The notes under the pieces were generated by a model. The model worked only from the letters and a program-made list of their open reading frames with translations. It was not told the origin of the DNA and ran no database searches. From the NCBI GenBank assembly GCA_011051755.1, contig DRKN01000014.1, positions 1 to 39,752 on the forward strand: DNA of 39,752 bases, read 5' to 3'. Each line of letters begins with the position of its first letter. Position 1 is the stretch's first letter. The translations under genes and the position numbers were made by a program. The stretch is from Gammaproteobacteria bacterium (GTDB lineage: Bacteria > Pseudomonadota > Gammaproteobacteria > SZUA-152). Shown piece after piece: positions 1 through 36,290 of this stretch.

Positions 1-62
1 TCTGCGGCGTTGCGTCTCTTGAAAAGGGCACGCCATTCCCGGCGAGACGCGCCTTGCAGCTA
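1..62. repeat. Family-1 dispersed element, copy 1 (partial, at window edge)
   Basis: GGCGTTGCGTCTCTTGAAAAGGGCACGCCATTCCCGGCGAGACGCGCCTTGC aligns to GGCGTTCCGCCTCTTGCAAAGGAC..CCATTTACTGCGAGGCGCGCCTCGC at about 35990-36045. Confidence 0.6.
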
Positions 63-155
63 ACGGCTTCCCACCACGCTGATAGGTACACTTTATACGT
101 TACACCACACTAGTTGGTCACTATTGCTGGCCATGTGGGATTTGCCGAATGCGTC

Positions 156-5865: not shown

Positions 5866-5948
5866 CTCGGCAACTGCTCCTGCGTCGCCTACCCAAAGTA
5901 GGTTCTTTAAGAAAAGCGTCTACTTTTGGTGCCTGCGTCCATGCAGGC
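5866..5948. repeat. Family-1 dispersed element, copy 2 (shorter/diverged)
   Basis: CTGCGTCGCCTACCCAAAGTAGG...AAAAGCGTCTACTTTTGGTGCCTG matches AAAAGCGCCTACTGTTGGCGCCCTG of the 35973-36081 copy. Confidence 0.5.
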
Positions 5949-7212: not shown

Positions 7213-7485
7213 ATGTCTTCATTGTCTGCCGAGCAGAAAGAACAAATCGTCAAGGATTATGCGCGCGCCGCAACTGACACCGGTTCCCCCGAGGTTCAGG
7301 TGGCCCTGCTGACCGCTCGTATCAATCACCTTTCCGGACACTTCAAGTCCCACATCCATGATCACCATTCCCGTCAGGGTCTGTTGCGCATGGTCAGTCG
7401 TCGTCGCAAGCTGTTGGACTATCTCAAGGGCAAGAACGTCGAGCGCTACCGCGAGCTGATTTCACGTCTTGGCCTGCGTCGTTAA
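7213..7485 (+). CDS. rpsO: 30S ribosomal protein S15
   Basis: [47 protein letters not shown]...; 90 aa. Confidence 0.98.
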
Positions 7486-7648
7486 GGAACCTCTGATTCA
7501 TTCCGGGTGAGCTGACATGAGAGTCGAAATCGTCCAGACCAAGGTGCTGATTGCTGCCAATAGCAGGGACTATTGGCAAAATCAGCAACGTGGGGATTGG
7601 CGATTTTGCACTCATGGCAGTCAGTCATGAATTGATCAGCGGTTCCTT
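7484..7648. mobile_element. MITE-like full-length imperfect hairpin element, about 165 bp
   Basis: Ends AAGGAACCTCTGATTCATTCC / reverse complement AAGGAACCGCTGATCAATTCA; inner arms GACATGAGAGTCGAAATCG / GCCATGAGTGCAAAATCG and core GCCAATAG-caggga-CTATTGGC. Confidence 0.65.
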
Positions 7649-19878: not shown

Positions 19879-19987
19879 CTGAAGGCTGCACTGCTGCGTT
19901 GTGATTCTTGCAAAGGGAAGAACCACCCTTCTCGGCGAATCACGCCTCGCCTAAAGCGCCTGTTATTGGTGCAGCTACAGCTTTCAG
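19879..19987. repeat. Family-1 dispersed palindromic element, copy 3 (109 bp)
   Basis: CTGAAGGCTGCA...CTTGCAAAGGG...CGCCTCGCCTAAAGCGCCTGTTATTGGTGC...CAGCTTTCAG; same layout and length as 35973-36081. Confidence 0.7.
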
Positions 19988-35884: not shown

Positions 35885-35972
35885 GCATGAACCTTAAGCG
35901 TAAAATTGAACGGCTTGCCCGATGCCCGTACTCCGCCGAGGTTATGTTGACGGGAGCGCCCGACGGGTTGGC

Positions 35973-36081
35973 CTGTCAGCATCCAGGACGGCGTTCCGCC
36001 TCTTGCAAAGGACTAAGGCCATTTACTGCGAGGCGCGCCTCGCCTAAAAGCGCCTACTGTTGGCGCCCTGAATGCTGACAG
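35973..36081. repeat. Family-1 dispersed palindromic element, copy 4 (109 bp), between dsrC and dsrM
   Basis: CTGTCAGCATCCAGG...CTTGCAAAGGAC..CCATT..GCGAGGCGCGCCTCGCCTAAAAGCGCCTACTGTTGGCG...CCCTGAATGCTGACAG. Confidence 0.85.
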
Positions 36082-36173
36082 ACCCACTGAACCCGTCAAT
36101 ATCACCTGGGTGGGGTATTTGGCTGACGACCGGTCAGTCACAAACGACACGTTTCCTTAAATCCGGAAAAGCA

Positions 36174-36248
36174 CCGTCATTTCCGCGTAGGCGGGAATCC
36201 AGGGTGTATCTCGCGGCTCTGGATTACTGACCTGCGTGAGAATGACGG
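36174..36248. repeat. CCGTCATT...AATGACGG inverted-repeat element between dsrC and dsrM
   Basis: CCGTCATTTCCGCGTAGGCGGGAATCCAG...CTGGATTACTGACCTGCGTGAGAATGACGG. Confidence 0.8.
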
Positions 36249-36290
36249 TATTCCGGGTCTTTCAAGCCTGTCGTCCCGCTCAGCGATAAA

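Follow-up and report, generated by a model that had tools for sequence, protein, structure and literature searches.

A probable non-autonomous mobile element between dsrC and dsrM of a gammaproteobacterium and its putative cargo, a conserved pair of inverted hairpins

The element at the dsr locus and its relatives in the window

The window, i.e. the whole stretch of 39,752 nucleotides that was analysed, harbors an element of 189 bp (35929-36117; whole elements and the linker are given without strand) in the gap between dsrC and dsrM. It is framed by the terminal inverted repeats (TIRs) TACTCCGCCGAGGTTATGTTGACGGG (35929-35954, plus strand) and CCCGTCAATATCACCTGGGTGGGGTA (36092-36117, minus strand), each being the complement of the other, and the left repeat is homologous to the CTAGTACTCTTTCAAGGTAATA ends of intact copies in genomes G006 and G011. 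The left TIR is followed by a linker mini-hairpin, CCCGACGGG (35959-35967), corresponding to the CCC-N3-GGG found between both hairpins in relatives across the class, and by a 109-bp palindrome on the minus strand (35973-36081), denoted hairpin 2. Hairpin 2 contains a conserved core with a polarity of its own (35978-36057, minus strand), which matches R1, a covariance model of the core, with E = 9e-14, and a nested 22/23-bp unit CCAACAGTAGGCGCTTTTAGGCG (36041-36063, minus strand) is inserted at GCA^A in the internal loop of this core. Compared with intact relatives, the element is a deletion derivative from which hairpin 1 is missing. On either strand, the DNA fold of the palindrome at 35973 is better than that of 199 of 200 shuffles, and as RNA the entire 197-nt stretch at this copy folds with z = -5.9.

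The orthologous site in genome G001 is 97% identical around the insertion and lacks the element. This empty dsr site (L183) carries a 12-bp palindromic stretch (GCC TGCCCGGCGGCA GGC), which might represent the footprint of an excision or else the site in its original state. In the sister species G005 the dsrC-dsrM gap (L186) is occupied by another subfamily of the element; by their sequences, this copy and that of the window are evidently independent insertions between the same pair of genes. A separate repeat with the arms CGTCATTTCCGCG...GGAATCCAGG adjoins the element in the window at 36178-36270.

Three further copies are found in the window. The right half of a second-subfamily element is cut by the contig start (1-113; core 1-70, minus strand, E = 1e-13) and its TIR ends with CTAG at 110-113. 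Contig C201 ends in the remaining half (L163), and a complete relative is the one in the dsr locus of G005. Between rpsO and pnp (gene names by position and sequence) a single-hairpin copy with the TIR AAGGAACCTCTGATTCA... spans 7484-7648 (core 7526-7604, plus strand, E = 2e-12). The palindrome at 19879-19987 (minus strand) is also a full single hairpin, with different arms, and its core at 19885-19960 (minus strand) matches R1 with E = 4e-7. Conversely, the repeat at 5866-5948 (minus strand), located between rbfA and truB, is a palindromic repeat of a different kind, which shares only the nested unit of about 22 bp and gives no R1 match at E <= 0.1. A tandem palindromic repeat of about 70 bp with the 22-bp unit, seen elsewhere in the assembly (L010, G000:C6:29150-29600), is of the same type.

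The original prediction of a 109-bp palindromic family with four copies thus holds in part. Both palindromes, 35973-36081 and 19879-19987, are confirmed, sharing an inner block and differing in their self-complementary arms, and both match R1; the 109 bp are, however, only the inner hairpin of an element with TIRs of its own rather than its full extent. Likewise, the partial copy placed at 1-62 is a genuine copy but reaches to the CTAG at 110-113, and its TIRs and arms are different ones. Three of the four proposed copies stand, while 5866-5948, regarded as a diverged copy, has to be removed and the core at 7526-7604 had been overlooked.

Intact elements, their distribution and their ends

Intact relatives are about 268 bp long and read CTAG, TIR of about 33 bp, hairpin 1, CCC-N3-GGG, hairpin 2, TIR complement and CTAG; in related genomes intact copies measure about 260-270 bp and the linker between the hairpins is CCCGAAGGG. 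The two hairpins have homologous cores that are mutually inverted and located on opposite strands, each following the pattern CAAGGCG-stem-GCNG-stem-AATGG...CCTT-stem'-CAAG-stem'-CAACGC. When an intact copy is folded as RNA with no structure supplied, the minimum-energy fold (z = -12) recovers the core. Among close pairs of cores, 74 of 75 are inverted, at a spacing of 29-51 nt. Whole elements are mostly 264-289 bp long, with TIRs of 19-40 bp, despite unrelated arms and TIRs. Arm and TIR sequences are unrelated between lineages, while the core loops, the geometry and the CTAG-type site are retained; the loops CAAGGCG, GC.G, AATGG, CCTT, CAAG and AACGC are conserved class-wide as their surroundings change. 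Reading frames from four Pseudomonas/Azotobacter-type elements matched no Pfam or NCBIfam family, and no recognisable gene lies within the element.

At E <= 0.01 the genome of the window contains at least 97 core matches to R1. Of these matches, 40 lie within 200 bp of the first base of a contig. The element therefore coincides with many contig breaks in the assembly, and a single covariance model suffices for its annotation. R1 matches occur in 109 of the 369 genomes that were sampled from the class. In the sample of 399 genomes from the phylum, 69 have matches, some of them outside the class; as only the top-scoring candidates per genome were scored, copy numbers are minimum values. Carriers identified by name are Azotobacter chroococcum, Pseudomonas aeruginosa (on a plasmid), a Halomonas megaplasmid, a Salinisphaera MAG and a Pseudomonadales MAG. 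A plasmid search with the G006 copy and a phage search with a Pseudomonas-type copy gave no match. Placement relative to genes shows no strong bias: with crude ORF calls, 60 copies are flanked by co-directional (29), divergent (17) or convergent (14) genes, compared with 62, 16 and 20, respectively, for the other intergenic gaps of the same loci.

Occupied sites have CTAG on both sides, whereas in related species the unoccupied orthologous sites are GTAT, GTAC, ATAG or TTAG. Since the empty sites follow N-TA-N and not CTAG, the duplication may comprise either TA or 4 bp. These pairs of occupied and empty orthologous sites indicate that insertion is real. At L232 (G000:C200:10291-10561) a solo right end, a decayed insertion, remains where G002 has a full copy.

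With a length below 500 bp, no coding capacity, TIRs and many copies, the element fits the definition of a miniature inverted-repeat transposable element (MITE) in these respects; as far as tested, it belongs neither to REP/RAYT nor to attC or IS630, and no Rfam family was found at gathering score. TIRs shared with an IS5 element are found for one subfamily only, namely that with the terminal CTAGGGCCTGTTGACGTTTC of about 20 bp, which bounds elements in Azotobacter, Halomonas and Pseudomonas. On the plasmids pHA020_1 of Halomonas and pAcX50f of Azotobacter the same ends, with CTAG flanks, enclose an IS5-family (DUF4096 + DDE_Tnp_1) transposase gene; unlike the element described here, these IS5-family elements encode the transposase and lack the two hairpins. 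Furthermore, an IS5 transposase of G011 carries CTAGGGAGCGTTCTCAATTA as its left end, a sequence close to the one that terminates the element at L319 (CTAGGGGGCGTTCTCAATTAG). For the TIRs of the subfamilies present in the window (CTAGTACTC..., CTAGTGTGG...) no matching transposase was found; PF13340, the IS5 subgroup that was searched for, went undetected in several genomes rich in the element, e.g. G006, G383, G290 and G589. An autonomous copy with CTAGTACTCTTTCAAGG ends was found neither in plasmids nor in G011, where the TIR pairs listed are all about 239-306 bp apart, with no longer one among them. An origin as an IS630 (Tc1/mariner-like) MITE was rejected, as PF13358 was not found in 10 of the 15 genomes searched, including the element-rich G006, G383, G290, G106 and G048.

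Among known elements, MITEPsy1 of Pseudomonas syringae is similar in being non-autonomous, TIR-bounded and IS5-type with a CTAG or YTAA duplication, and it transposes in vivo; by its description it differs in its length of 100 nt, its 18-nt TIRs and its restricted distribution, and the passages compared mention no inner double-hairpin cassette (PMC3189936). The R200 intergenic repeat of P. fluorescens, 320 bp long with 47 copies in SBW25, is possibly a repeat of the same kind, judged by size and copy number, and such single-genome repeats could be members (PMC2718517). REP/REPIN sequences with their RAYTs resemble the element as high-copy, extragenic, strand-polarised palindromes in two inverted copies, but the element has TIRs and no RAYT linkage, and in these genomes GTAG-type REPs constitute a repeat of their own. 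At L163, L175, L162 and L168, RAYT-type genes are flanked by such ordinary GTAG REPs, e.g. GTAGGTTGGGCAAAGCG and GTAGGGTGGGCA, separate from the element. At gathering score neither the window nor seven copy-bearing loci matched an Rfam family, a permissive Rfam scan yielded chance-level matches only, and a literature word search with the TIR sequences found none. Nor did the literature library searched yield a description of an inner cassette common to several TIR types.

Conservation of the fold and its interpretation

In a first set of 35 cores, gathered without using pairing, 93.7% of the cells are paired and two-sided changes are present in 20 of 24 pairs; none of 500 shuffles gives covariation as strong and no slid control comes near. 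For 82 matches from many, mostly other, families of the phylum, in an alignment that was fitted to model R1 and thus leans towards it, 92.1% of the cells are paired and the covariation score is 0.77, versus 0.19 for shuffled data. The arms covary strongly, and the covariation supports a conserved fold as expected for a structured RNA. Read on the core's own strand, G·T pairs outnumber A·C mismatches by 88 to 7 in the set collected without pairing, with hairpins 1 and 2 behaving alike; wider sets split by strand give ratios of 92:6, 72:7, 85:9 and 80:8, i.e. about ten to one on both strands. Because one transcript strand could not produce the G·T bias in both halves, each half appears to be constrained as its own strand. 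From these sequence comparisons the fold, more than the arm sequence, appears to be what evolution keeps. The covariation, together with the distribution of R1 matches, lends good support to the original prediction of a non-autonomous element whose folding is selected and whose arms covary.

We consider it probable, at roughly 0.7, that the element is a non-autonomous MITE moved in trans by IS5-type transposases, and that its cargo is a conserved strand-polarised hairpin pair with a putative function. The transposases would act through the TIRs, by extension in all subfamilies. That the inner cassette outlasts repeated TIR replacement suggests that both hairpins may act as a folded single strand. 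With one core on each strand, either orientation would present one core, and only one, of the correct polarity on each transcript or single strand, and a function would thus be orientation-independent, including an RNA-level effect in operons. The role we prefer lies at the RNA level in read-through transcripts, where the hairpins might serve the protection or processing of operon mRNA; alternatively, they may fold as single-stranded DNA during replication or transposition.

MITEs of bacteria are commonly seen as deletion remnants of a single insertion sequence that are specific to one lineage. In the present case a single folded cassette persists across many genera while its arms and transposase-recognition ends are exchanged, and its retention implies either that the structure is under selection or that some mechanism supplies the cassette with new ends. 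More tentatively, and with greater doubt than belief, we suggest that a single ancient cassette of two oppositely polarised hairpins with conserved loop bases, built to work in either orientation, has travelled through Proteobacteria within many unrelated TIR types for a common RNA or single-stranded-DNA function. If true, the cargo of a transposon would be defined by its fold, not by gene or sequence.

The main competing explanation is an ordinary IS5-type MITE without selected function, in which extruded or templated palindromes are corrected until their arms are perfectly complementary and the core is merely inherited. Inverted-repeat correction is a known mutational process that would yield self-complementary, fast-changing arms and TIRs; it explains the matching arms, part of whose covariation could arise in this way, and the rough context count without strong placement bias agrees with such an element. 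It leaves unexplained, however, why core loops are conserved class-wide while their surroundings change, why G·T prevails over A·C in both halves, and why length and inverted spacing are nearly constant, and we consider it unlikely. About equally unlikely is a structured RNA of benefit to the host, be it a cis element or a small RNA, that spreads only incidentally by transposition. Window copies 35929 and 7484 do lie between co-directional genes (dsrC-dsrM and rpsO-pnp, respectively), the RNA fold of an intact copy has z = -12, and the G·T bias fits an RNA strand, but copies are not bound to particular genes, there is no Rfam family at the gathering threshold, and the empty sites show gain without a conserved place.

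Much less probable is an element akin to REP/REPIN that is mobilised by a Y1 RAYT transposase through recognition of its hairpins. Two inverted strand-polarised hairpins do resemble a REPIN, the nested unit contains GTAG, and such a unit lies some 250 bp from the RAYT at L175; nevertheless, the RAYT linkage proposed in the original prediction was not borne out, as 50 Y1-transposase loci in relatives are mostly devoid of modules, with only a few near any, ordinary REPs flank those RAYTs that were inspected closely, and TIRs with CTAG-type flanks on both sides do not suit RAYT elements. Integron recombination sites of the attC type, raised in the same prediction and reminiscent of the hairpins with unpaired conserved bases on one strand, can hardly be entertained: RYYYAAC at the 5' and GTTRRRY at the 3' side are missing on both strands (core alignment A1), two inverted hairpins are enclosed by TIRs, and there are no cassette arrays.

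The nested 22-bp unit

The 22-bp unit CCAACAGTAGGCGCTTTAGGCG occurs as insertions at GCA^A in either internal loop. At one exact site it is present in L144, L153, L154 and L156 and absent from the otherwise similar L145, L157 and L158. L144 has two copies of the unit, and by their sequences L143 and L146 look like the product of a deletion between two such copies. The 22/23-bp unit is possibly a very small mobile unit targeting unpaired bulges. It also recurs in other palindromic repeats, including matches in G008.
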